Below are positions 32,068 through 44,692 of a stretch of 64,000 nucleotides of DNA, in pieces (positions within the stretch are counted from its first letter, which is position 1; each line of letters begins with the position of its first letter). Under the pieces are notes generated by a model, which was not told the origin of the DNA, did not search any database, and was given only the letters and a program-made list of their open reading frames with translations. Source of the DNA: an uncultured Spirochaetales bacterium (GTDB lineage Bacteria; Spirochaetota; Spirochaetia; Sphaerochaetales; Sphaerochaetaceae). The DNA is taken from assembly GCA_944388965.1 (NCBI GenBank), contig CALXKL010000005.1:1-64000 (forward strand). Direction: 5' to 3'. The position numbers and the translations under genes were made by a program.

Positions 32068-32095
32068 TTGACAGCCTGCATGGATGGTTTATGAT
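32068..32095 (+). promoter_or_regulatory. promoter of the catabolic operon
   Basis: TTGACA (32068-32073), spacer 16, TATGAT (32090-32095). Transcript expected to start near 32102, directly at the first operator-like repeat. Confidence 0.75.
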
Positions 32096-32103
32096 GTAAT
32101 CAG

Positions 32104-32182
32104 TTAATCATTTAAGCCAAAAGACCTTAATCTGCATCTTAAAACATTACATTATAAGGGTTTAAATGGCTTAAACGATTAA
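32104..32182 (+). promoter_or_regulatory. paired LacI-type palindromes / inverted repeat in the leader
   Basis: TTAATCATTTAAGCC (32104-32118) and GGCTTAAACGATTAA (32168-32182) are inverted repeats with 14 of 15 bases complementary, 49 bases apart. Each contains an operator-like element: TTAAACGATTAA (32171-32182) has the AAACGNTT core of LacI-family sites, and TTAATCATTTAA (32104-32115) a similar one. They flank the whole leader, and the second ends just before the ribosome site. Both operator and RNA-stem readings are possible; the LacI regulator encoded in the operon favours operators. Confidence 0.55.
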
Positions 32183-32197
32183 GAGAAGGAGGCAGGT

Positions 32198-33397
32198 TTG
32201 ATAAAGGCAGCTCTAATCGCTACACCGCTTGAGAACGACAAGAGAAGGATCCTTTCCTGCGCAGAGGACTTCAGGAAGGAGATTAGCTCACACATGGACG
32301 ACGAACTCGTGTTCGTCAATGCAGACGAGATTCTGGATGAGCCATGCAAGTTCATCTTCGTGGCATCCGGTGGATCTGCACAGGCCTTCAAGGTCATCTA
32401 TGAGAAGACACATGGTCCCTATGTCCTGATAACCACACCGGGCAACAACTCCCTGGCGGCATCCATGGAGGAGCTCAGCTATGTGAATGACCATGGCCAG
32501 GTGGGGCAGATTCTGCATGGCAGCGCCGCCACCATCGCAGGAAGGCTGGAGACCATCCACAGATGCTTCAGGACGATATCAAGACTTGATGGATACAGGG
32601 TGGGTGTGCTCGGCAGCCCCAACATGCTCATAAACAGCGAGTACGATGTGGACAAGCTCAGAAAGAGCGCCGGCATCGAGACAGTCTACATCACGATGGA
32701 CGAGGTCTGCGCAGAGATAGAGAAAAGGACCTACGAGCCCGACACCTACACCCAGGCACTCATCGAGACCGGCTATGACAGGAACGAGCTGGAGAAGGCC
32801 TTCCATATCTACGGTGCGGTCAGGCGTCTGATCGACCGCCATCACTTCGACGCTGTCTCGCTCAGGTGCTTCGACCTTCTCGATCCCTACAAGGCCTCCG
32901 GCTGTCTGGCCCTGGCAATACTCAACAGCATGGGCATTCCCGCCTCCTGCGAGGGCGATACGAGAAGCCTTCTGTCGATGGTCGTCATGAGCACGCTCAC
33001 AGGCCAGCCATGCTTCATGGCGAACCCGAGCAGAATCGACATGGATAGGAAGGAGATCGTCCTTGCGCACTGCACCCTTCCGCTTTCGATGGTCGACAGC
33101 TACAGCCTGACGACCCATTTCGAAAGCGGCATAAGCGTGGCGGTGAAGGGCGAGTTCGCAGACGACACCTATACGCTGTTCAAGTGCCGTGAGGACATGA
33201 GGACCTACTTCGTCCAGAAGGCGGCCTTCGTGGAGAACCTCAACGAATGCGATCTGTGCCGCACACAGGTCAGGCTCAGGGTGGAGGATGTGGACAGCTA
33301 TCTGACACATCCGCTGTCGAATCACCAGATCATGGTGCGTGGTGACCATGTGGATGAGGTGAACGAACTTTTCAAGTGGTATTCTGTCAGGAACTGA
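32198..33397 (+). CDS. L-fucose/arabinose isomerase-like protein
   Basis: A 399-residue protein from a TTG start (32198; AGGAGG five bases before). The central part (GYRVGVLGSPNMLINSEYDV) and the C-terminal CEGDTRSLLSMVVMSTLTGQ and IVLAHCTLP are those of the fucose-isomerase fold: Glu in CEGD, Asp and His as metal ligands. Family members interconvert aldoses and ketoses or cleave sugars; the exact reaction is unknown. First gene of the 12-gene operon, so it probably handles the imported sugar early. Confidence 0.75.
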   Translation: MIKAALIATPLENDKRRILSCAEDFRKEISSHMDDELVFVNADEILDEPCKFIFVASGGSAQAFKVIYEKTHGPYVLITTPGNNSLAASMEELSYVNDHGQVGQILHGSAATIAGRLETIHRCFRTISRLDGYRVGVLGSPNMLINSEYDVDKLRKSAGIETVYITMDEVCAEIEKRTYEPDTYTQALIETGYDRNELEKAFHIYGAVRRLIDRHHFDAVSLRCFDLLDPYKASGCLALAILNSMGIPASCEGDTRSLLSMVVMSTLTGQPCFMANPSRIDMDRKEIVLAHCTLPLSMVDSYSLTTHFESGISVAVKGEFADDTYTLFKCREDMRTYFVQKAAFVENLNECDLCRTQVRLRVEDVDSYLTHPLSNHQIMVRGDHVDEVNELFKWYSVRN

Positions 33398-33439
33398 TGG
33401 ACAATAGGAAAATGTAAAAGACCAGAAGGAGGGTCAATC

Positions 33440-34498
33440 ATGAAAAAGGTAACTAGACTTGTGGCATTGCTGCTGATCGTCCTGTTCGCATTCACCTCAT
33501 GCGGTGGAAGCGGAGAGGGCTCGGGTTCATCGACCTCGGAAGGAGACGGCGTCGATCTCAAGCTCGGAATGATCGCGACGATCTTCGGCACGCAGAGCTT
33601 CAACGACGACATCAGGGATGGTGTGGAGGCTGTCAGCGAGAAGTACGGCTTCGACAACATCTGCCTCGAGGTTCCCGATATCGCGGATGCCGGAAACAGC
33701 CTCAGGACCCTCATCAGCCAGGGCGTCAACTTCGTCATCATCGGCTCTGCCGAGTACGCGGATGCCATGGTCGAGGTCGCGAACGAATATCCTGAGGTCA
33801 AGTTCCTCTATCTAAACGAGGCAAATGGAATGCCTTCCAACATCATGACAACGACGTATGCCGAGCAGGAGGGCGCCTTCCTCATCGGAGCTCTGGCAGG
33901 CCTTCTCACCAAGACGGACAATGTCGGTTCCGTTGCGGCCGTCTCCGGCGATATCGTCCAGGAGCGCTTCAACTGGGGCTTCAAGGCCGGTGCCGAGTAC
34001 GTAAACCCCGACATCACGGTCCAGAGCGCCTTCACCAACAGCTACAGCGACATCAACAAGGGACAGGAGGTCGCCAACGCGATGTACTCCAGAGGCGCCG
34101 ACATTGTTAGCACGTTCGCCGGTGCATGTAACATCGGAGTCTTCAACGCAGCCAAGAGCGCAGGAGAAGGCAAGTACTGCTTCGGCGCTGCAAAGGGCCA
34201 GTTCGACCAGATGCCCGACAAGATCGTCGCATCCCTGGTCAAGCCCGTCGACCAGACGATCCTGGCAATCGTGTCCGACTATGTCGACAACGGCAATTTC
34301 GACACGTCGTCCCCGATGACGCTCGGCCTTGCCAATGACGGTGTCATCGTCCGCTACACGGACATGAACGACGATCTTCTGGCCATGATCACCCCGGAGA
34401 TCCAGGCGCAGCTCGACGAGATCAGCGCGGCGATCATCTCCGGCGAGATCGTCCCGCCGCAGGTCGAGGCAGACTACAACGCCAACTTCGCGAAGTAA
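33440..34498 (+). CDS. BMP/PnrA-family substrate-binding lipoprotein
   Basis: A 352-residue periplasmic lipoprotein. Signal MKKVTRLVALLLIVLFAFTSC has a relaxed spirochaetal lipobox (AFTSC) and is followed by a Gly/Ser-rich linker. The mature part (LKLGMIATIFGTQSFNDD; AGLLTKTDNVGSVAAVSGD; ERFNWGFKAGAEYVNP) is the BMP type, whose characterised members (PnrA of Treponema) bind purine nucleosides. It feeds the ABC transporter encoded next. Confidence 0.88.
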   Translation: MKKVTRLVALLLIVLFAFTSCGGSGEGSGSSTSEGDGVDLKLGMIATIFGTQSFNDDIRDGVEAVSEKYGFDNICLEVPDIADAGNSLRTLISQGVNFVIIGSAEYADAMVEVANEYPEVKFLYLNEANGMPSNIMTTTYAEQEGAFLIGALAGLLTKTDNVGSVAAVSGDIVQERFNWGFKAGAEYVNPDITVQSAFTNSYSDINKGQEVANAMYSRGADIVSTFAGACNIGVFNAAKSAGEGKYCFGAAKGQFDQMPDKIVASLVKPVDQTILAIVSDYVDNGNFDTSSPMTLGLANDGVIVRYTDMNDDLLAMITPEIQAQLDEISAAIISGEIVPPQVEADYNANFAK

Positions 34499-34532
34499 GT
34501 GAAGCCGTCCGACATTGATACCAGGAGGAAAG

Positions 34533-36062
34533 ATGGCTGAATACGCTATTGAGCTTAAAGGCATAACCAAGCGCTTTCCTGGCGTCGTTGCCAACAACAA
34601 CATTTCGTTCTCCGTCGAAAAGGGCGAGATCCACGCCCTTGCCGGCGAGAACGGTGCTGGCAAGTCGACCCTGATGAACATCCTCTTCGGGCTCCTCGTG
34701 CCCGACGAGGGTGAGATAGTCATCAATGGAAAGGTAGAGAAGTTCTCCAGCCCGAGGGATTCGAACGCCGCAGGAATCGGCATGGTGCACCAGCACTTCA
34801 TGCTCATTCCGAAGATGAGCGTCATGGAGAACGTCATCATAGGTCAGGAGCCGGGATCGTCCCTCAAGATAGACAGGCAGAAGGGCATCGAGGAGGTCCA
34901 GGCGATCTCCGACAGATACGAGCTCAATCTGGATGTCACGAAGAGGGTTGGTGACCTGTCGGTTCCCGAGCAGCAGAGGGTCGAGATCCTCAAGGTCCTG
35001 TACAGGCAGGCCGACATCCTGATCTTCGACGAGCCGACCGCGGTCCTTCCGCCGCATCTGATCGACGAGTTCTGCGACATCCTGCTCTCGCTCAAGCAGA
35101 AGGGCAAGACCATCATCTTCATCAGCCACAAGCTGGCCGAGGTCATGAAGGTCTCCGACCATGTCACGGTCATCCGCCGTGGAGAGGTCATTGGCACCAA
35201 GGCCATATGCGACACGTCCATAGACGACATAACGCGCATGATGGTCGGCCACAGCGTCGATACCGGCCGCAAGGCGAGAAGCGACATCCGTCCCGGCAAG
35301 GAGGTCCTGACGATAAAGGACCTGCACTATACCAACATCGAGGGCAACGAGAAGCTGAAGGGACTCGACCTTACCGTCCATGAAGGCGAGATCGTCGGCA
35401 TCGCGGGCGTCGATGGAAACGGCCAGGAGGAGATGGAGAAGTGCATTCTCGGTCTGTTCAAGCCCGACAGCGGAGAGATTCTCTTCGAGGGACGCAACGT
35501 GAACGACCTGAACGTCCGCCAGCGCCGCGACATGGGACTTGGCTACGTCGCCGAGGACAGGCAGAAGGAGAGCCTCGTGCTGCAGTATTCCGTCGCCTAC
35601 AACCTCGTGCTCGGACAGGAGGAGAGGCCGGAATACTCGAAGAAGGGCTTCTGGCTGAAGCGCAACGCGATACAGGAGACTGCGGAGAGGCTTGCAAAGG
35701 ACTATGACATCCGTCTTGCCAACGTCAACGTCGCAGCAGGAACCCTCTCTGGCGGAAACCAGCAGAAGATCGTCATCGCACGCGAGGCGAATGCCGATCC
35801 CTCCCTCTACGTCGCCATCCAGCCGACAAGAGGTCTGGACATCGGCGCCGCGGATTCGGTCCAGGATACGCTGATCCGGCTGCGTGACGAGAACAAGGCC
35901 GTCCTCCTGATCTCCATGGAGCTTGACGAGGTCCTTGCCGTCAGCGACAGGATCGCCGTCATATTCGACGGACGCATCGTCGCGGTCGTGGATGCGGCCA
36001 CTGCGGACAAGGAGTCGATCGGATACCTGATGCTCGGCAGCAGGAAAGGAGGGGAGAAATGA
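34533..36062 (+). CDS. sugar/nucleoside ABC transporter ATPase, two nucleotide-binding domains
   Basis: A 509-residue protein with two ABC cassettes in tandem. First: Walker A GENGAGKST, Walker B LIFDEPTAVL, but the signature reads LSVPEQQ where LSVGEQQ is usual. Second: degenerate Walker A GVDGNGQ, good signature LSGGNQQK, and YVAIQPTRGLD. Such NBD1/NBD2 asymmetry is typical of the family. ATG 34533 follows AGGAGG by 4 bases; it overlaps the next gene by four. Confidence 0.9.
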   Translation: MAEYAIELKGITKRFPGVVANNNISFSVEKGEIHALAGENGAGKSTLMNILFGLLVPDEGEIVINGKVEKFSSPRDSNAAGIGMVHQHFMLIPKMSVMENVIIGQEPGSSLKIDRQKGIEEVQAISDRYELNLDVTKRVGDLSVPEQQRVEILKVLYRQADILIFDEPTAVLPPHLIDEFCDILLSLKQKGKTIIFISHKLAEVMKVSDHVTVIRRGEVIGTKAICDTSIDDITRMMVGHSVDTGRKARSDIRPGKEVLTIKDLHYTNIEGNEKLKGLDLTVHEGEIVGIAGVDGNGQEEMEKCILGLFKPDSGEILFEGRNVNDLNVRQRRDMGLGYVAEDRQKESLVLQYSVAYNLVLGQEERPEYSKKGFWLKRNAIQETAERLAKDYDIRLANVNVAAGTLSGGNQQKIVIAREANADPSLYVAIQPTRGLDIGAADSVQDTLIRLRDENKAVLLISMELDEVLAVSDRIAVIFDGRIVAVVDAATADKESIGYLMLGSRKGGEK

Positions 36063-37096
36063 CAAGCAACAAGAAAAGGGAGATTCTTCAGGAGCTCCTG
36101 ATACCTGTGATCGCCGTCGTGCTGTCCCTTCTGATCGGCGGCATCATCATCGCACTGCTCGGCTTCAATCCGTTCGACGCCTACGGTGCGCTGATCCAGG
36201 GATCCATGGGCTCTCTCGTGTCGTTCACGATGACGCTCAAGACATCTGTTCCTCTGATCCTCGCAGGACTTGCAGTTGCAGTGGCCTTCAAGTCGTCTGC
36301 GTTCAACATCGGTGTCGAGGGGCAGCTGATGTTCGGAGGCCTGTGTGCAGGACTGGTCGGCATCTATGTGCCGCTTCCTCCCGGACTCCATCTGGTGGTC
36401 ACTCTGCTTGCCGGAATGCTGGGCGGTGCGCTGGTCGCGTTCTTCCCCGCCATCCTGAACACGGCATGCAACGTGAGCGTCGTCATCAGCACCATCATGC
36501 TGAACTACGTCGTGCAGTTCTTCGTGCAGTTCTGCGTCATGGGTCCGTTCCATGGTGACACGAGCGCTCCTGCGACGGATCCTCTGCTTGCAAGCGCGAC
36601 GCTGCCGAACATACTGCCGGCCCGCTATCAGCTGAATCTCGGCTTCATCATCATGATCCTGGCCGTGGTGCTCGTGTACATCTTCATGAACAAGACCACC
36701 AAGGGCTACCAGCTGACCGCAGTCGGACTCAACGCGACGGCCAGCGAGTTTTCCGGAATGAGCGTCAAGAAGAACATCTTCATGGCACTCCTGCTCAGTG
36801 GTGCGATCGCCGGACTGGCCGGCTCGATCGAGGTCACCGGAACCCTCAAGAGGATGGTCAACGGCTTCTCGACCGGATATGGCTTCTCGGGAATCCCAAT
36901 CGCCCTCATGGCAAGAAACAATCCGTTCGCGATCATACTGACCGGATTCTTCTTCGGCATGATGCGCTCCGGCTCGTTCCTTATGCAGGCCACCGTCGGC
37001 GTCTCGTCCGACATGGTCGGAATCATCCAGGGACTCGTCGTCGTGTTCATCTGTCTCGAGAACCTGATCCGCTACTACATGAACAGGATCAAATAG
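36059..37096 (+). CDS. ABC transporter permease 1 (BMP type)
   Basis: A 345-residue permease with about nine membrane segments (VIAVVLSLLIGGIIIALLGF; FIIMILAVVLVYIFMNKTTK). The loop TAVGLNATASEFSGMSVKKN carries the EAA-like coupling motif (G--G). It pairs with permease 2. Starts by ATGA overlap with the ATPase gene. Confidence 0.88.
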   Translation: MTSNKKREILQELLIPVIAVVLSLLIGGIIIALLGFNPFDAYGALIQGSMGSLVSFTMTLKTSVPLILAGLAVAVAFKSSAFNIGVEGQLMFGGLCAGLVGIYVPLPPGLHLVVTLLAGMLGGALVAFFPAILNTACNVSVVISTIMLNYVVQFFVQFCVMGPFHGDTSAPATDPLLASATLPNILPARYQLNLGFIIMILAVVLVYIFMNKTTKGYQLTAVGLNATASEFSGMSVKKNIFMALLLSGAIAGLAGSIEVTGTLKRMVNGFSTGYGFSGIPIALMARNNPFAIILTGFFFGMMRSGSFLMQATVGVSSDMVGIIQGLVVVFICLENLIRYYMNRIK

Positions 37097-37107
37097 GAGG
37101 ATAGTAC

Positions 37108-38043
37108 ATGTTCAGTTTTCTTTCATACATGATACCGACCACGCTCAGAATGGGCACTCCTATCGCGTTCACTGCTCTGGGTGGCGTCGTCTCGGAACGC
37201 TCCGGTGTCAACAACATCGGTCTTGAGGGAATCATGACGGCAGGTGCATTCGCAGCCGTCCTGGGTTCGTACTATACGGGCTCTCCATGGATCGGAATCC
37301 TGATGGCCATGCTGGTAGGAATCCTGATCTCGGCGATCCACAGTGTGCTTACCATCACGATCGGTGCGAAGCAGGCGGTCAGCTCCATGGCTCTCGTCCT
37401 TCTCGCAGAAGGTCTGTGCGGAGTAGGCGTCGAGGCCTTCTTCGGCCAGAGCGGAAGCACCGCCCAGGTCAACAACCTGCCGACAAGCAACATCTTCGCA
37501 TCGATTCCGCTGGTGGGCGGCTTCCTGTCCCATCTGTCTCCGTTCGTGTATATCGGCTTCATCGCGCTGATAGTGGTCACTCTGCTGTTCAAGTTCACGC
37601 GCTTCGGCTTCCACATCACTGCAGTAGGCGAGAACCCGACCATGGCCGAGACCTGTGGAATCAACGTCCATCGCGTCAGATACATCTCGGTGCTCGCCTC
37701 GGGACTCCTCGGTGGACTCGGCGGTGCAATGCTGTCGATCGGCCAGATGAACCTCTTCCAGGAGGGCATGGTCGCCGGTAGAGGATATCTGGCTCTTGGA
37801 GCAGTCACGATGGGAAGATGGAATCCCGTGGCGTCCTACTGCTCTGCAATGATCTTCGGATTCTTCGATGCACTGCAGCTGTATCTCCAGACGATTCCTT
37901 CCAACCCAATCCCCAGCGACTTCATCCAGATGATTCCGTATCTTGCGATCCTGATCATCCTCGCGGTCACATCGAGGAAGATGAAGTACTTCGGAGTGAC
38001 GGCCGGAGGAAAGCCCTATACCAAGTACGCATCATCCCACTGA
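37108..38043 (+). CDS. ABC transporter permease 2 (BMP type)
   Basis: A 311-residue permease (NIGLEGIMTAGAFAAVLGSY; TAVGENPTMAETCGINVHRV) matching the smaller subunit of nucleoside/BMP transporters. It carries the same coupling-loop pattern as permease 1. AGGAGG stands before the start, 11 bases after permease 1. Confidence 0.88.
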   Translation: MFSFLSYMIPTTLRMGTPIAFTALGGVVSERSGVNNIGLEGIMTAGAFAAVLGSYYTGSPWIGILMAMLVGILISAIHSVLTITIGAKQAVSSMALVLLAEGLCGVGVEAFFGQSGSTAQVNNLPTSNIFASIPLVGGFLSHLSPFVYIGFIALIVVTLLFKFTRFGFHITAVGENPTMAETCGINVHRVRYISVLASGLLGGLGGAMLSIGQMNLFQEGMVAGRGYLALGAVTMGRWNPVASYCSAMIFGFFDALQLYLQTIPSNPIPSDFIQMIPYLAILIILAVTSRKMKYFGVTAGGKPYTKYASSH

Positions 38044-38056
38044 TGCAGACAAGTGC

Positions 38057-38080
38057 AGGCGGGGCTGTCACGCCCCGTCT
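38057..38080 (+). other. hairpin inside the operon before the nucleoside hydrolase
   Basis: AGGCGGGGC (38057-38065) pairs with GCCCCGTCT (38072-38080) across six bases with one wobble. No T-run follows. It lies in the 114-base gap after the transporter genes and may separate transporter and enzyme expression by mRNA stability. Confidence 0.45.
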
Positions 38081-38157
38081 GACCAGGGCAGGGGTGGCTG
38101 TGATGGCACGTCTGCCCGACAAGGCGGGGAGAAACCCGCAGGAAAAAGGAGAAGACA

Positions 38158-39162
38158 ATGAAGGAAAGAGTCATTATCGACTGCGATACCGGAATCGATG
38201 ACGCTCTGGCTCTGGTGCTTGCGCTCTCGAGACCTGAACTCGACATCGTCGGCATAACCACGGTTGCCGGAAACGTCGATGTCGAGAACACCACAAGGAA
38301 CACATGCAATGTCGTGCATCTGCTCGGCCGCGATGACATAAGGATCGCCAAGGGCGAGCCGAAGCCTCTCGAGAGGGAGCCTCTGAGGGCAAGCGGTGTG
38401 CATGGTGTCACCGGCCTGAGGGGCTACACGTTCGACAGCGACTGGAAGGAGAATCTCCTGGACATCCATGCAGTTGAGTTCATGAAGAGGCTTCTCGAGG
38501 AGAGCGACGAGAAGACCACGATCATCGCGATCGGACCCGTCACCAACGTCGCAAAGCTCCTGATCGAGCATCCTGAGGTCAAGGACAGGATCCGCCGCAT
38601 CGTCTTCATGGGCACCAGCTACCATTGCGGAAATCCGACCCCTGTGTCGACGTTCAATGTGCTTGTCGACCCCGAGGCCTTCAGAAAGGTCATCTTCTCG
38701 GGAGTCGAGTTCGTGGCCTGCCCGCTCGAGGTCACCAAGACGGCGACGATCGAACCGGACGAGGTCGAGAGGCTCGATGCGATGGGAACCCCCGTAGCCC
38801 GTTTCGCCGCCAGCATCATCCGCGGCTATGGAATCACGAAGATCGGCGCCGACGAGAAGATTGACACGGCCAACGAGGAGGTCATCTCCGAGAACAGGCT
38901 GAAGGCAGCCAAGGAGAGCAACGAGGTGACGATGCATGATCCCGCGACCATCGCATATGTCATCGATCCGTCGCTCTTCACCACGGCCAAGTACTACTGC
39001 GACGTCGAATGCAAAGGTGAGCTCACTACGGGCTTCACGCTCATCGACAAGAACGACTACTACAAGAAAGAGGATGACGAGAGGAACCTGACGCTCATGG
39101 AGAGCATCGACAGGCCCCGTTTCATCGACCTGTTCCTGGATTCCGTAAGGAGGTATGGCTGA
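38158..39162 (+). CDS. inosine/uridine-preferring nucleoside hydrolase family protein
   Basis: A 334-residue enzyme of the IUNH family. The metal-binding DCDTGIDDALALV is at residues 8-20, IGPVTNVAKLL and the FMGTSY segment follow, and MHDPATIAYVIDPSLF holds the final Asp. It cleaves N-glycosidic bonds of ribonucleosides to base and ribose. It follows a BMP-type transporter, so an imported nucleoside is the likely substrate. GGAGA lies before the start. Confidence 0.88.
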   Translation: MKERVIIDCDTGIDDALALVLALSRPELDIVGITTVAGNVDVENTTRNTCNVVHLLGRDDIRIAKGEPKPLEREPLRASGVHGVTGLRGYTFDSDWKENLLDIHAVEFMKRLLEESDEKTTIIAIGPVTNVAKLLIEHPEVKDRIRRIVFMGTSYHCGNPTPVSTFNVLVDPEAFRKVIFSGVEFVACPLEVTKTATIEPDEVERLDAMGTPVARFAASIIRGYGITKIGADEKIDTANEEVISENRLKAAKESNEVTMHDPATIAYVIDPSLFTTAKYYCDVECKGELTTGFTLIDKNDYYKKEDDERNLTLMESIDRPRFIDLFLDSVRRYG

Positions 39163-39165
39163 CAT

Positions 39166-40695
39166 ATGGCAGACAGACCCAATGTCGTATACATACTTCA
39201 GGACCACCAGGCCTATTTCGGGCATGGACGCTACGAAGGGGGAGTGAACCCGAAGCGTCCATGCTTCGAGGCCTTCGCACGTCAGGGTGTCGAATTCACC
39301 GAGGCAAGATGCGTCACCCCGATGTGCGGGCCTGCCAGACGCACCATGCTCACAGGGCTTTATCCACACAACCACAAGCAGGTGCACAACGAGAACGACC
39401 CACCGTATGACGACGAGGTCATCCTGGACACATTCCATGAAGCCGGATACGAGAACTGGTATTTCGGCAAATGGCATGCCGGTCCAGGCGATGCCCATGA
39501 CCATCACTGCCAGGGCTTCTCATATACAAGCTACGGCAATCCATATCTGACCCGGGAATACAAGGACTACCTGGAGCGGCACCACCTGCCTCAGGCAAGC
39601 CATCATATAGAATACGCATTCATGACCGACTCGTATGTCGAGCAGCACTACTTCGAGAAGCTCAAGGTCGGTGCCGACTACAAGTGCGAGACAGGCTGGT
39701 GCGGCGAGCATGCAGTAGGCATCACCACGACGCCGAAGGAGACGCATGAGGCCTTCTTCCTCGCATCCCTTGCCTGCGACAGGCTTGAAAGGCTTGCAGG
39801 CGAGGACAGGGACCGCCCATTCATGCTCCAGGTCCATTTCTGGGGACCTCATCAGCCCTTCTTCCCCACGAAGGAATTCGCTGATATGTACAGGCCCGAG
39901 GACATCGGGGAGTACCCATCGTTCAGGGATACGCTTGAGAACCAGCCGGACGTGTTCCGCATGGAGCTCAGCTATCCGATGAGCGAGGACGGAGAGTACA
40001 TAAGGGTGCCCTCGGCACTTCCATGGAGCGACTGGCAGAGGATTCTTGCCAGGTGCTATGCGCATATCACGATGGTGGATGCCGCAGGAGGCATGGTCAT
40101 CGACAAGCTGCATGAGCTTGGTCTGGACGAGAATACCATCGTCATCTGGGCGACCGACCACGGCGACGCAATCGCCAGTCATGGTGGACATTTCGACAAG
40201 AACAGCCACATGAGCGAGGAGGTCATGCGCGTTCCTCTGGCGGTACGATGGCCCGGTCATGTCGACGCAGGTCTCAGGGACGACCATCTGGTGTTCACCT
40301 GCGATACGCCTGCCACGATGATGGATGCGGCGGGGCTGTCCTTCAGGAAGGGATGCGACGGCAGGTCGCTTCTTCCTCTGTGCCATCATGACGCAGGTGA
40401 TGTCAGGTGGCGAGACAGTCTGATGTGCGAGAGCTATGGGCATGGTTATGGTTGCACCATACTCAGCCGCTGTGTCTACAAGGACGGTTACAAGTACGTC
40501 GTCACACAGGACGACCTTGAACAGCTGTATGATCTGAAGAAGGATCCCTTCGAGATGGACAATCTGGCCATGAAGGATGGATATTCTGATAGAATCATCA
40601 TCATGAGGGATGAACTGAGAAGGCTTCAGAAGGAAAGCAGGGATCCCGTGGATCTTGACGGTCTGCTTGCCAGCGCGAAGAGAAGGAGGTGCTGA
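39166..40695 (+). CDS. type I sulfatase
   Basis: A 509-residue cytoplasmic sulfatase (no signal peptide). The active-site motif MCGPARRTMLTG (residues about 50-61) is the CxPxR form, whose Cys is converted to formylglycine. Metal ligands fit YILQDHQ near the start, and IWATDHGD and HFDKNSHM near residues 325-350. It removes sulfate esters from sugars or phenols. The combination with a nucleoside hydrolase and a BMP transporter is unusual. It starts 3 bases after the hydrolase stop. Confidence 0.85.
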   Translation: MADRPNVVYILQDHQAYFGHGRYEGGVNPKRPCFEAFARQGVEFTEARCVTPMCGPARRTMLTGLYPHNHKQVHNENDPPYDDEVILDTFHEAGYENWYFGKWHAGPGDAHDHHCQGFSYTSYGNPYLTREYKDYLERHHLPQASHHIEYAFMTDSYVEQHYFEKLKVGADYKCETGWCGEHAVGITTTPKETHEAFFLASLACDRLERLAGEDRDRPFMLQVHFWGPHQPFFPTKEFADMYRPEDIGEYPSFRDTLENQPDVFRMELSYPMSEDGEYIRVPSALPWSDWQRILARCYAHITMVDAAGGMVIDKLHELGLDENTIVIWATDHGDAIASHGGHFDKNSHMSEEVMRVPLAVRWPGHVDAGLRDDHLVFTCDTPATMMDAAGLSFRKGCDGRSLLPLCHHDAGDVRWRDSLMCESYGHGYGCTILSRCVYKDGYKYVVTQDDLEQLYDLKKDPFEMDNLAMKDGYSDRIIIMRDELRRLQKESRDPVDLDGLLASAKRRRC

Positions 40696-40697
40696 AC

Positions 40698-41369
40698 ATG
40701 AGGGACAAGGTGGGAATATACCCGACACTGGCCTGCGCCGACTATCTGCACTTGGCACATGATCTGGAGATCCTCCACCGCGCCGGTGTGACGAGCTTCC
40801 ATATCGACATAATGGATGGAAACTATGTGCCGAACTACTGCCTGAACTTCGACTATCTTAAGGCGGTCAGCTCATTCAGCGACACTCCATGCGATGTCCA
40901 TCTGATGACAAGCGAAGTCGAAAGGGATGTAGAGCGTTCCATCCAGTGCGGCTCGAAGGCCGTCGCATTCCATGTCGAGCGGACGGACCTTGATACAGAT
41001 GCTCTTCTCGAGTCGATCAGGATGAAGGGATGCCGTTCAGGACTTGTGATCAGTCCCCAGACGCCTGTCGAGGCACTCGAGCCTCATCTTGCCTCCTGCG
41101 ACTACGTGATCATGATGGGGGTCCGTCCCGGTTTCTCAGGCCAGGCGTTCCTCGAGGAAACATACGCAAGGATAGGCCAGCTCGACGAGCTCAGGAGAAG
41201 GGCGGGCCTGGATGTGGAGATCATCGTCGATGGAGGAATCGACTTCGAAAACGCTTCACGCTGCATCCGGCATGGTGCCGACAGCATCGTCGCCGGAGCG
41301 CTGAACATCTTCAGCCACCAGCAGGGGCTGGAGAAGGATCTGGAGCGTCTCCTGAGGTCATTGGAGTAG
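40698..41369 (+). CDS. ribulose/allulose-phosphate 3-epimerase family protein
   Basis: A 223-residue TIM barrel: IYPTLACADYLHL, FHIDIMDGNYVPNYC (metal Asp and His), DVHLMTS, IMMGVRPGFSGQAF and IIVDGGIDFEN. Active residues of the RPE/AlsE group are kept. ATG 40698 has GGAGG 8 bases before it; GTG 40689 is part of that site. It could act on ribulose-5-phosphate or on allulose-6-phosphate. Confidence 0.85.
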   Translation: MRDKVGIYPTLACADYLHLAHDLEILHRAGVTSFHIDIMDGNYVPNYCLNFDYLKAVSSFSDTPCDVHLMTSEVERDVERSIQCGSKAVAFHVERTDLDTDALLESIRMKGCRSGLVISPQTPVEALEPHLASCDYVIMMGVRPGFSGQAFLEETYARIGQLDELRRRAGLDVEIIVDGGIDFENASRCIRHGADSIVAGALNIFSHQQGLEKDLERLLRSLE

Positions 41370-41374
41370 CTGGA

Positions 41375-42409
41375 ATGGTCACGATCAAGGACGTCGCACA
41401 GAAGGCCGGGGTCACCCCCGCAACCGTCTCGATGGCTCTCAACGGAAAGCCGTCCATCTCTGTGGAGACGAGACGGAGAATCGAGCGCATAGCCAGTCAG
41501 CTTGGCTATGTGCCCAGTGCGACTGCCAAGACGCTGAGGACCAGCCGCTCCCATACTCTCGGCCTGATTGTCGGAAACCTCACCAACGGCTTCTTCCTCG
41601 ACATCATCTATGCCGTCGAGGAGTACGCGTCAAGCAGGGGATACAGCATCTTCATCTGCGATGCAGAGCGTAGCAGCGACAAGGTCGTCTCCTCGATGAA
41701 GGCCCTTGCCGCCAGAGGCGTCGATGGTGTCATCATCACGCTCGGCTTCTATCCTGACGGAAAGCTCGAGGAGGAGGTCAGGAGGATATCCTCGGAAGGC
41801 ATCAAGGTTCTGACGCTCACCTCCGCCGCCCAGTTCGATGGCGTGCCCATCGTGCGTCAGGGCGAGACCGACGAGGCCTTAGCACTTGTCGAGAAGGTCT
41901 GCAGTCTTGGTCATCGTAGAATCGGTCTTCTGAGCTCTCCTCGCGACTCCTGGCTCAACAGGACCCGGGTCAACACGATGAGGAGGGCACTTGAGCTCAA
42001 TGGGGTGCTTGACGAGGATCTCGTCGACTACTGCGAGATGAACGTGGATGCAGGGCAGAAGTGTGCATTCGATCTTCTCTCGAGGCATCCTGAGATCACG
42101 GCTGTGATGTGTGTGAACGACCAGGTAGCCATCGGAGCGATGAATGCGGCCAGATGCATCGGTCTGGACATTCCTGGGGAGATATCGATCACCGGATTCG
42201 ATGGAATCGAGATGTCGCGGATCATCACACCGCATCTCACCACGGTCCACATCCCCCGTTATGAAATGGGGCTCGTGGGGTGCAGGAACATAATAGAATG
42301 GATAGAGAACCCCGATGCCAGGATACCCGGCGAAACGCTGATTTCAAGCACTTTCGTCGAAGGACAGACACTGGGGATATGCAGAGACGCAAAGGAGGAT
42401 AAGAAATGA
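41375..42409 (+). CDS. LacI-family transcriptional regulator
   Basis: A 344-residue regulator. HTH TIKDVAQKAGVTPATVSMAL with hinge KTLRT, then a periplasmic-binding-protein-like sensor (TLGLIVGNLTNGFFLDIIYA; ITGFDGIEMSRIITPHLTTV). It sits inside the operon and probably acts on the paired operator-like repeats at 32104-32182, sensing a sugar or sugar-phosphate. ATG 41375 has TTGGAG upstream; its end overlaps RpiB. Confidence 0.9.
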   Translation: MVTIKDVAQKAGVTPATVSMALNGKPSISVETRRRIERIASQLGYVPSATAKTLRTSRSHTLGLIVGNLTNGFFLDIIYAVEEYASSRGYSIFICDAERSSDKVVSSMKALAARGVDGVIITLGFYPDGKLEEEVRRISSEGIKVLTLTSAAQFDGVPIVRQGETDEALALVEKVCSLGHRRIGLLSSPRDSWLNRTRVNTMRRALELNGVLDEDLVDYCEMNVDAGQKCAFDLLSRHPEITAVMCVNDQVAIGAMNAARCIGLDIPGEISITGFDGIEMSRIITPHLTTVHIPRYEMGLVGCRNIIEWIENPDARIPGETLISSTFVEGQTLGICRDAKEDKK

Positions 42410-42852
42410 AGATCATCATTGGATGCGACCATGGCGGCTACGATCTCAAGCTCGAGATCATCTCACGTCTGGAGAAGGAAGGCCATTCCGTAGTCGATGT
42501 CGGATGCCCTGACAGGAACCCTGTCGACTACCCGGATGTCGCTGCCGACCTGTGCCACAGACTGCTGGACGAGAAGGAGGATTTCGGAATCCTCATCTGC
42601 GGTACGGGAATCGGGATATCGATTGCGGCGAACAAGATAGACGGAATCCGTGCGGCTCATCTGTCTGATGCATATTCCGCGAGCATGGCCAAGGCCCATA
42701 ACAACGCGAATGTGATAACCCTCGGTGCCAGGACGCTGGGCGTCGAGCTTGCCTGGACGATCGTCAAGGCATATATGGATTCGAGCTTCCTTGGGGGAGT
42801 TCATCAGACCAGGGTGGAGAAGATCGCCGCCTTGGAGAAGGAGGACAAGTGA
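42406..42852 (+). CDS. RpiB/LacAB-family sugar-phosphate isomerase
   Basis: A 148-residue isomerase: GCDHGGYDLKLEI (catalytic His region), VDVGCPD and ILICGTGIGISIAANK, whose Cys is the base of RpiB. It interconverts ribose-5-P and ribulose-5-P, or allose-6-P and allulose-6-P. It starts by ATGA overlap with the regulator. Confidence 0.88.
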   Translation: MKIIIGCDHGGYDLKLEIISRLEKEGHSVVDVGCPDRNPVDYPDVAADLCHRLLDEKEDFGILICGTGIGISIAANKIDGIRAAHLSDAYSASMAKAHNNANVITLGARTLGVELAWTIVKAYMDSSFLGGVHQTRVEKIAALEKEDK

Positions 42853-43694
42853 TGGATCTTAATGAGGTCAAGAGACTGAGGATGGAGGCTCTCGATGCCA
42901 GAGTGAAGCTGATCCGCGAGATCGCATCGTTCGGGCAGGGGCATATCGGAGGCAGCATGTCGGTTGTGGAGCTTCTGACATACCTGTACTACCATGAGAT
43001 GAAGATCGATCCGAAGAGGCCCGACTGGGCGGAGCGCGACCGTCTGGTACTCTCCAAGGGACACAGCGGACCTGCTCTCTACGCCATTCTAGCCAAGAAG
43101 GGGTATTTCGACGAGTCACTGCTGTCTACGCTCAATCAGGGCGGCACCAGACTTCCCAGCCATGCCGACATGACGAAGACACCTGGAATCGACTTCACCG
43201 CCGGTTCCCTCGGCCAGGGCTTCAGCGCCGCCGTCGGAATCGCACTCGGCCAGAGGTTGAAGAAGTACGACGCCTACACATACACCGTCGTCGGCGATGG
43301 CGAGAGCCAGGAAGGCGAGGTCTGGGAGGCTGCGGAGGCTGCAGGAGCATGGAAGCTCGGCAACCTGATCGGCTTTACCGATGTCAACGGCCAGCAGCTT
43401 GACGACTACACAGACAACATCATCCCGATGCACCATCTCAAGGAGCGCTACGAGACCTTTGGCTGGCATGCGGTCGAGGTTGCCAACGGACATGACTTCA
43501 ACCAGCTCGAGGCTGCCATCAAGGAGGCGAAGAGCGTCACGGACAAGCCCAGCATGATCATCCTTCATACAATCAAGAGCTATGGATACATTCCAGGAGA
43601 GGGTGTGAAGGCCAACCATTCCATGCAGATCAGCAAGGAGAAGGCCGAAGAGGCGATTGAGGCGCTGTTCGCAAGAGAGGAGGAGAGAGAATGA
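42852..43694 (+). CDS. transketolase, N-terminal subunit
   Basis: A 280-residue thiamine diphosphate-binding half: AHIGGSMS-like GQGHIGGSMSVVELL, KGHSGPALYAIL, TAGSLGQGFSAAVGIALG and the GDG(x)nN motif GDGESQEGEVWEAAEAAG. Split transketolases of this kind are common. The start ATG 42852 overlaps the RpiB stop (TGATG). The C-terminal subunit follows by ATGA overlap. Confidence 0.9.
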   Translation: MDLNEVKRLRMEALDARVKLIREIASFGQGHIGGSMSVVELLTYLYYHEMKIDPKRPDWAERDRLVLSKGHSGPALYAILAKKGYFDESLLSTLNQGGTRLPSHADMTKTPGIDFTAGSLGQGFSAAVGIALGQRLKKYDAYTYTVVGDGESQEGEVWEAAEAAGAWKLGNLIGFTDVNGQQLDDYTDNIIPMHHLKERYETFGWHAVEVANGHDFNQLEAAIKEAKSVTDKPSMIILHTIKSYGYIPGEGVKANHSMQISKEKAEEAIEALFAREEERE

Positions 43695-44638
43695 GAGACA
43701 CCAGCACATTCGAGAACTACAAGGATGCGGTCGTCGCTGCGATGATCGATCTGGGCAGGGAGCATGACGATGTCGTCGTCATGGATGCCGACCTTTCCTC
43801 CTGTATCGGTTCTACTGCCTTTCAGAAGGAGTTCCCCGAGCGCTTCTACAACGTAGGCATAGCGGAGGCGAACATGGCTGCAGTGGCAGGAGGACTGTCC
43901 TCCGTCGGACTGACACCCATCATCCACAGCTTCGGCTGCTTCGCCTCCAGGAGGATGTACGACCAGCTGTTCATCAGCGTCGGCTATGCCCACAGGACCG
44001 TCCATGTGATTGGCTCGGATCCCGGAATCACGGCACAGTACAACGGCGGAACGCACATGCCCTTCGAGGATATCGCTCTTATGCGTCAGATTCCCGGCAT
44101 GATCATCTACGAGCCATCCGATGCAAGGAGCCTGTACAGTCTGATGATCCAGGCATACGAGAGCGGCAAGTCATCCTATCTGCGCACTCCGAGAAAGGGT
44201 GTCATCCATCGCTATGGGGAAGATGTCGAGATCAGGCTTGGAAAGGCGATCACGGCACGTCAGGGTGATGATGTGACGATCGTTGCGACCGGCGCATACC
44301 TCGTAGACCAGGCGCTCAAGGCAGCTGAATCGCTTGCTGGAAAGGGTGTCGGTGCACGTGTGATCGATCTGCACACGATCCGCCCGCTTGATGAGGAGAC
44401 GATTCTCAAGGCCGCCAAGGAGACGGGAAGGATGCTTATCTGCGAGAACGGCCGATACGCCGGTGGCACGGGCGAGATGATTTCCGCTGTGCTTCTCAAG
44501 GCCGGTGTGCCCTGCAAGGTCGATTTCGTCAATGTCGGCGAAAGGTTCGGTGAGGTCGGCTCGCTCGACTATCTTGCAACGACGTTCGGCTTCAAGGCCG
44601 AGAACATCGAGGCCAAGGCTCTTGCTCTGGTGAAGTGA
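43691..44638 (+). CDS. transketolase, C-terminal subunit
   Basis: A 315-residue half with the catalytic Glu region FYNVGIAEANMAAVAGGLS and the C-terminal domain IVATGAYLVDQALKAAESL. With the N-terminal subunit it moves two-carbon units between sugar phosphates, linking the operon to the pentose-phosphate pathway. Last gene of the operon; a hairpin follows. Confidence 0.9.
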   Translation: MRDTSTFENYKDAVVAAMIDLGREHDDVVVMDADLSSCIGSTAFQKEFPERFYNVGIAEANMAAVAGGLSSVGLTPIIHSFGCFASRRMYDQLFISVGYAHRTVHVIGSDPGITAQYNGGTHMPFEDIALMRQIPGMIIYEPSDARSLYSLMIQAYESGKSSYLRTPRKGVIHRYGEDVEIRLGKAITARQGDDVTIVATGAYLVDQALKAAESLAGKGVGARVIDLHTIRPLDEETILKAAKETGRMLICENGRYAGGTGEMISAVLLKAGVPCKVDFVNVGERFGEVGSLDYLATTFGFKAENIEAKALALVK

Positions 44639-44657
44639 GTCTTCAAATCATATGTTT

Positions 44658-44692
44658 CGAGGCCATCTGTCCGGATATGGCAGGTGGCCTCG
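44658..44692 (+). terminator. hairpin at the end of the catabolic operon
   Basis: CGAGGCCATCTG (44658-44669) pairs with CAGGTGGCCTCG (44681-44692), one wobble; weak T tail. Confidence 0.6.

Follow-up and report, generated by a model that had tools for sequence, protein, structure and literature searches.

A twelve-gene spirochaete operon with a probable role in the breakdown of sulfated nucleosides

Which substrate would require a nucleoside-type transporter, a nucleoside hydrolase, a sulfatase and enzymes of the pentose-phosphate pathway to be encoded together? The question is raised by an operon in the stretch of DNA analyzed here (the window; 64,000 nucleotides of contig CALXKL010000005.1, assembly GCA_944388965.1), from an uncultured Spirochaetales bacterium of the Sphaerochaetaceae with a source genome of ~2.1 Mb in 17 contigs. 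Our results make it reasonably probable that the operon takes up and breaks down sulfated nucleosides. A sequence-only reading of the window had described a twelve-gene operon, and twelve genes indeed stand in order, head to tail, on the plus strand (32198-44638). Its family assignments held by Pfam/NCBIfam for eleven of them; the FucI-like protein, for which no Pfam match was found (four orthologues tested), is placed only through its predicted AraA/FucI fold. The genes are:

32198-33397, plus strand: FucI-like isomerase, 399 aa, TTG start (AraA/FucI fold, predicted)
33440-34498, plus strand: binding lipoprotein of the BMP/PnrA family (Pfam/NCBIfam)
34515-36062, plus strand: ABC transporter ATPase, duplicated, BMP type (Pfam/NCBIfam)
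36059-37096, plus strand: ABC permease 1 (Pfam/NCBIfam)
37108-38043, plus strand: ABC permease 2 (Pfam/NCBIfam)
38158-39162, plus strand: nucleoside hydrolase, RihA-like (Pfam/NCBIfam; ribose-pocket Glu changed to Thr)
39166-40695, plus strand: cytoplasmic S1-type sulfatase (Pfam/NCBIfam; active-site residues)
40698-41369, plus strand: ribulose-phosphate 3-epimerase (RPE) paralogue (NCBIfam/Pfam; phosphate-site Ser changed to Ala)
41375-42409, plus strand: LacI-family regulator, CytR/RbsR-like (family models)
42406-42852, plus strand: RpiB (family models; phosphate-anchoring Arg137 changed to Val)
42849-43694, plus strand: transketolase N-terminal subunit (family models)
43691-44638, plus strand: transketolase C-terminal subunit, atypical type (E. 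coli H461 changed to D, D469 to N)

In the scheme that we infer, from ligand and sulfate position to step order and every enzyme activity, an uptake and catabolic system for sulfated nucleosides would be under LacI control. The BMP-type ABC transporter, with a pocket devoid of ribose-engaging acidic residues, would import a nucleoside with a sulfate ester on the sugar, the cytoplasmic formylglycine sulfatase would take off the sulfate, and the nucleoside hydrolase would free the base. Hydrolysis and desulfation could occur in either order, with the hydrolase possibly acting first in operons of the hydrolase type. The pentose-phosphate pool would then receive the pentose by way of FucI-like isomerase, RPE-like epimerase, RpiB and split transketolase. 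As the site of the sulfate we favour the 5' position of the nucleoside sugar.

The sulfatase and its gene neighbours

By its complete site, the operon enzyme is predicted to be an S1 formylglycine sulfatase. The maturation motif C-x-P-x-R reads C54-G-P-A-R58, with C54, P56 and R58 invariant (22 homologues), and K102, H104 (in GKWH), H229, K345 and R58 as well as the metal residues D13/D331/H332 are invariant in the 22 aligned members; their presumed roles in sulfate and metal binding are those usual in the family. No signal peptide was seen on inspection by eye, and the predicted model, built from a small alignment, has a pLDDT of 90. The source genome encodes an anaerobic-type sulfatase maturase (TIGR03942, above cut-off), sited away from the operon and beside another sulfatase, and a maturase gene also adjoins the sulfatase of the same clade in L059 (L numbers denote loci and G numbers genomes).

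The sulfatase superfamily also holds formylglycine hydrolases of phosphonates and phosphodiesters, with 2vqr/2w8s among the structural neighbours of the operon enzyme, and nucleotides are far commoner than sulfated nucleosides. The enzyme might thus be a phospho(di)esterase and the substrate a nucleotide or cyclic nucleotide, with digestion products of gut RNA and DNA as the food. We regard this as unlikely. In phosphonate monoester hydrolases Tyr/Thr replace the sulfatase Lys/His, whereas the putative sulfate-site residues named above are kept in 22/22 aligned sulfatases. Moreover, by sequence and by fold the enzyme comes closest to carbohydrate, Akkermansia and choline sulfatases, and the phosphonate monoester hydrolases (2vqr/2w8s) rank lower.

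The sulfated-nucleoside reading draws support from the genes around the sulfatase. An alignment of the enzyme was scanned against 85,000 genomes, mostly metagenome-assembled, which gave 66 loci; linkage was thus collected with the sulfatase as bait. The full module, defined as sulfatase, BMP transporter, nucleoside hydrolase, RPE, RpiB, both transketolase halves and FucI-like gene, was found in seven loci (L036-L042), from two spirochaetes, Intestinimonas, Gemmiger and an Oscillospiraceae bacterium, so that the gene set does recur in other gut bacteria, several of them Clostridia. The sequence-only reading would have been undermined by a sulfatase missing from all orthologous operons; it is present in 7/7 full operons, a sample found via the sulfatase and so not independent. 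Clostridial full modules usually add a cytidine deaminase and some a TalC-type aldolase; in a few loci single genes (e.g. RpiB in L036) were missed by the automatic gene caller. Two further species of the genus keep the order (L030/L036, L031/L037), Clostridia keep it with rearrangement, and given this conservation it is not due to chance.

Other operons place the sulfatase beside nucleoside phosphorylases. It occurs with a BMP transporter in L043, L047-L050 and L052, several of which add uridine or pyrimidine phosphorylase, cytidine deaminase and DeoC, and with purine nucleoside phosphorylase (PNP) and DeoC in L044 and L045. L046 holds uridine phosphorylase, DeoB, sulfatase, DeoC, an anSME-like fragment, RpiB, both transketolase subunits and the FucI-like gene. 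Since the nucleoside is the intermediate common to hydrolase-type and phosphorylase-type operons, we favour it as the sulfatase substrate.

In a maximum-likelihood tree the window sulfatase and 22 others make up a group of 23 members, with 40 relatives outside (Lokiarchaeota, Chloroflexi, Pseudomonadota and others). The group together with three unlinked rows has a support of 93/92, and inner sets of 4, 7 and 12 rows have 99-100% each; the join of the 4-row with the 19-row set lacks strong support, so that the 23 are better taken for two or three neighbouring clades, each well supported. A BMP gene lies within 9 kb of 17/23 group sulfatases, from both Spirochaetota and Bacillota, as compared to 0/40 outside relatives (Fisher 1e-10), and where a locus reaches at least 5 kb to either side the linkage is 16/21 vs. 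0/21 (2e-7); these p-values are optimistic, as related species are not independent and near-copies inflate them. Four of the six group sulfatases without a BMP gene (L044, L045, L046, L053) have a purine or uridine phosphorylase beside or near them, some with DeoB/DeoC.

Further sulfatases were observed at or beyond these loci. More distant second copies lie in tandem or near in L043 (11602-13155), L044 (11505-12974), L045 (11540-12973) and L051 (4750-6345), the last directly 3' of a BMP-type transporter. Asgard archaea (Loki- and Helarchaeota) hold many relatives, 42-49% identical and in some cases arranged in tandem, and nucleoside genes are absent from around them (L054, L056, L058, L060, L061, L063, L065, L068-L072, L084, L099). 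Another branch of the family (L073, L074, L075) is consistently placed after a taurine/alkanesulfonate-like ABC transporter; L073 and L074 add a LacI regulator (all by eye).

Sugar-side changes in the binding protein and the hydrolase

The transporter is represented by its whole gene set of Bmp-domain lipoprotein, ATPase and two permeases. In structures of BmpA, Asp19, Asp24, Asp225 and Lys242 form a polar face, Asp98/Lys242/Asp225 engage the ribose and Phe27/Phe176 sandwich the base (PMC13325309). At Asp19/Asp24/Asp98/Asp225 the window protein has T/T/N/A, while Lys242 is kept and the two aromatic positions are F and Y. Because the ribose-engaging Asp98 and Asp225 are N and A, we do not class it as a plain nucleoside binder. 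Position 225 is Ala in 16/16 sulfatase-linked BMP proteins but in 0/9 unlinked ones, 7/9 of which have Asp, and the BMP paralogue of the source genome (G000:C4:122567) keeps D/D/D/D. That several carboxylates are gone where the sugar sits, while the base side is retained, would fit what is expected from selection by an anionic nucleoside.

These changes bear on two alternatives. Nucleoside hydrolase, RPE, RpiB, transketolase and BMP transporter, with a distant ribokinase, would make a plausible pathway for plain ribonucleosides, and the sulfatase would be a passenger with no part in it. We consider this very unlikely, as the sulfatase clade is linked over two phyla and the coordinated pocket changes occur only beside a sulfatase, with a canonical paralogue in the same genome. 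The anionic-sugar signature of both pockets would suit the phosphate of a nucleotide too, and here the BMP alignment, with no visible conserved extra positive charge, argues the other way.

For the sulfated nucleoside, the hydrolase gives a second sign. The window enzyme has the DxDxxxDD, N and HD calcium/catalytic motifs. RihC enzymes have a Glu in the wall of their ribose cavity (PMC10778931). This residue (C. fasciculata E166) is Thr in 8/8 module hydrolases from two phyla and is present in E. coli RihA, the solved hydrolases compared and L057; baselines here and for the RpiB Arg below are solved structures, E. coli and a few viral-contig sequences (3 hydrolases, 11 RpiB). The Glu presumably contacts the 5'-OH, and its change to Thr points to an altered C5' group, so that hydrolysis of a still-sulfated nucleoside is possible. 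The pocket changes in the two proteins are both compatible with an anionic sugar. Together with the sulfatase linkage they speak for the nucleoside among the substrates that the sequence-only reading had offered, sulfated nucleoside or sulfated glycoside; a non-nucleoside glycoside found no support.

Several points weigh against the proposed role in sulfated nucleoside catabolism. The surroundings of the group sulfatases in L059 and L064 show no BMP gene and no classical nucleoside phosphorylase, and the hydrolase of L057, sulfatase-linked too, retains its Glu. In the phosphorylase-type operons (L043-L045, L047-L050, L052) the sulfatase is present without adjacent FucI-like, RPE, RpiB and transketolase genes, and these four would therefore not belong to the core. 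The pocket changes suit phosphate and sulfate equally. Finally, sulfated nucleosides have been recorded from spider venom and a beetle pupal case and are termed rare elsewhere (PMC6940665), and this rarity leaves the source of the substrate unexplained.

The FucI-like protein, the pentose steps and the kinase

The FucI-like protein scored 50.7 of 700 bits against the sulfoquinovose isomerase (SftI) model, below threshold. Its structure model (pLDDT 88, small alignment) matched 4r1q in Foldseek (E 1e-17) and superposes on L-arabinose and L-fucose isomerases with TM-scores of 0.82 and 0.74 at ~12% identity; as judged from this model, it is an isomerase of the AraA/FucI fold outside the Pfam families. 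Motif mapping gives E252, H291 and H376 as retained candidate metal ligands, with one carboxylate apparently replaced by N276. Of the genomes with sulfatase, RpiB and transketolase, 8/8 have a true orthologue, as compared to 1/10 of those with the sulfatase but not the other two. Elsewhere the protein is rare: matches with E<1e-40 were found in 4/393 Spirochaetota (three at 30-34% identity) and 1/295 Oscillospirales, where the order-level search gave no additional orthologue. Of the distant proteins (30-34%), those of other spirochaetes have hemN-like gene neighbours and those of Bacteroides stand alone, and the wider family is for this reason not nucleoside-linked. In the related spirochaete G028 (L032 3286-11627) the neighbours of a FucI-like gene include genes for a BMP transporter, for PNP and for an amidohydrolase like 5'-deoxyadenosine/methylthioadenosine deaminases, and no sulfatase lies beside it; this set perhaps serves 5'-modified nucleosides, which would be a further, weak hint in that direction.

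The statement of the sequence-only reading that no kinase is encoded is true of the operon and not of the genome, where a ribokinase-like PfkB gene lies at G000:C2:223139-224005 (TIGR02152, 226 bits, under the 300-bit cut-off). This gene outside the operon may supply the phosphate, or a kinase may be unneeded. The allulose-phosphate chemistry also suggested there found no support.

The remaining pentose enzymes are altered to different degrees. Arg137 of RpiB is one of its phosphate anchors (PMC4783025); it is Val/Ile in 7/7 module RpiBs aligned (Val in the window) with Arg141 kept; among RpiBs that have the motif, the solved and viral-contig ones retain Arg137. All module RPEs have Ala for the phosphate-site Ser, which the other RPE of the source genome keeps. 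E. coli His461 and Asp469 are matched by Asp and Asn in the window transketolase; at both positions the Clostridial module enzymes are canonical. The search of the source genome for a second transketolase found none, and the candidate for a housekeeping enzyme turned out to be a dehydrogenase E1-like protein. A similar atypical transketolase stands behind a phosphotransferase system operon on a Niallia plasmid (L157; C-terminal subunit 40% identical). The changes in RpiB, RPE and transketolase hint that some steps may meet something besides a 5-phosphate; they are uneven, and the sulfated-nucleoside claim is not based on them.

One could also imagine that no kinase is required, with a C5 sulfate mimicking phosphate through the hydrolase, the FucI-like protein, RPE, RpiB and transketolase and being removed late, as an O-sulfate counterpart of the sulfo-transketolase (sulfo-TK) pathway. 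That pathway runs on the FucI-type SqvD, the transketolase SqwGH and the RpiB-type SqwI without a kinase (PMC9594981). Module hydrolase, RpiB and RPE are altered just where the C5 group is held, and the FucI-like gene goes with sulfatase, RpiB and transketolase rather than with the sulfatase alone. SqwGH is reportedly a split transketolase. Nevertheless, we judge this route improbable: the sulfatase clade also occurs in operons with phosphorylase and DeoC, where desulfation must be early, the Clostridial transketolases are canonical at the altered positions, the source genome has the ribokinase-like gene, and no enzyme was seen that would deal with a sulfated aldehyde. A complete pathway of this kind, from nucleoside 5'-sulfates to ribose-5-sulfate, then with sulfate in place of phosphate through a new AraA/FucI-fold isomerase and modified RPE, RpiB and transketolase to the dedicated sulfatase, is likewise improbable in our view.

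Operon control and known systems

Control elements and an intergenic structure were read from the sequence:

32068-32095, plus strand: promoter TTGACA-N16-TATGAT, with an equal arrangement in L036 and L037
32103-32116, minus strand: LacI-type operator CTTAAATGATTAAC, half of a mirrored pair, with 2 mismatches to the site at 32170
32170-32183, plus strand: LacI-type operator CTTAAACGATTAAG, palindromic arms and central CG (sequence comparison)
38044-38157, plus strand: three stable hairpins in the intergenic stretch (folding z = -4.2)

The -35 box TTGACA begins at 32068, where the sequence-only reading had started the locus. The mirrored operator pair recurs with the promoter layout in L036 and L037, and the operon carries its own LacI regulator gene. 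By eye, Crp/Fnr-like regulator genes were observed upstream of Clostridial sulfatase operons, either immediately or with a few genes in between (L039, L041, L043-L045, L048, L049, L052), while the spirochaete uses LacI. An Rfam scan of the hairpin region matched no family; the hairpins are possibly an mRNA-processing or stability element, perhaps setting expression of transporter and enzymes apart. The operon is flanked by dnaB upstream and, on the opposite strand downstream, by rseP and a dxr-like gene.

A full-text search across 5.4 million open papers, with subscription journals mostly outside its scope, gave mainly venom papers and one beetle pupal-case study; bacterial catabolism of sulfated nucleosides was not among the results and appears to be undescribed. 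If the operon does serve this purpose, a dedicated transporter-sulfatase system across several gut genera would imply that animal guts regularly contain a metabolite pool of sulfated nucleosides which has been overlooked. The operon provides named proteins for finding them.

By analogy, the sulfo-TK pathway of Clostridium sp. MSTE9 (SqvD, SqwGH, SqwI) would be the closest precedent: both clusters join a FucI-type isomerase, a transketolase and an RpiB-type isomerase and hold no kinase. Sulfoquinovosidase, SqvB-type mutarotase and the sulfoacetaldehyde reductase SqwF were not present in the operon or the L036-L042 neighbourhoods (the whole genome was not searched), nor does the operon have the isethionate step, and a sulfoquinovose pathway was rejected for these missing genes; the operon instead adds nucleoside hydrolase, nucleoside-type transporter and sulfate-ester hydrolase. 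The E. coli D-allose operon (rpiB/alsI, alsE) shares RpiB, an RPE-type epimerase and a sugar-type ABC importer, but an allose pathway was rejected since the allose-type binding protein and AlsK are missing; the window set has nucleoside and sulfatase genes. With cytoplasmic S1 sulfatases such as choline sulfatase, the operon enzyme has in common the formylglycine motif, sulfate-binding residues and Asp-His metal pair, although it falls in a separate clade, is ~20% identical to solved sulfatases and has nucleoside gene neighbours. PnrA/TmpC of T. pallidum and BmpA/BmpD of Borrelia share with the window transporter the family, base-stacking aromatics, Lys242 and an ATPase with two permeases; the window protein differs by four neutral residues for the pocket aspartates and by its linkage to the sulfatase. 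Finally, the hydrolase is ~40% identical to RihA-type pyrimidine ribonucleoside hydrolases and shares their calcium-site and catalytic motifs, but has Thr in place of the ribose-pocket Glu.

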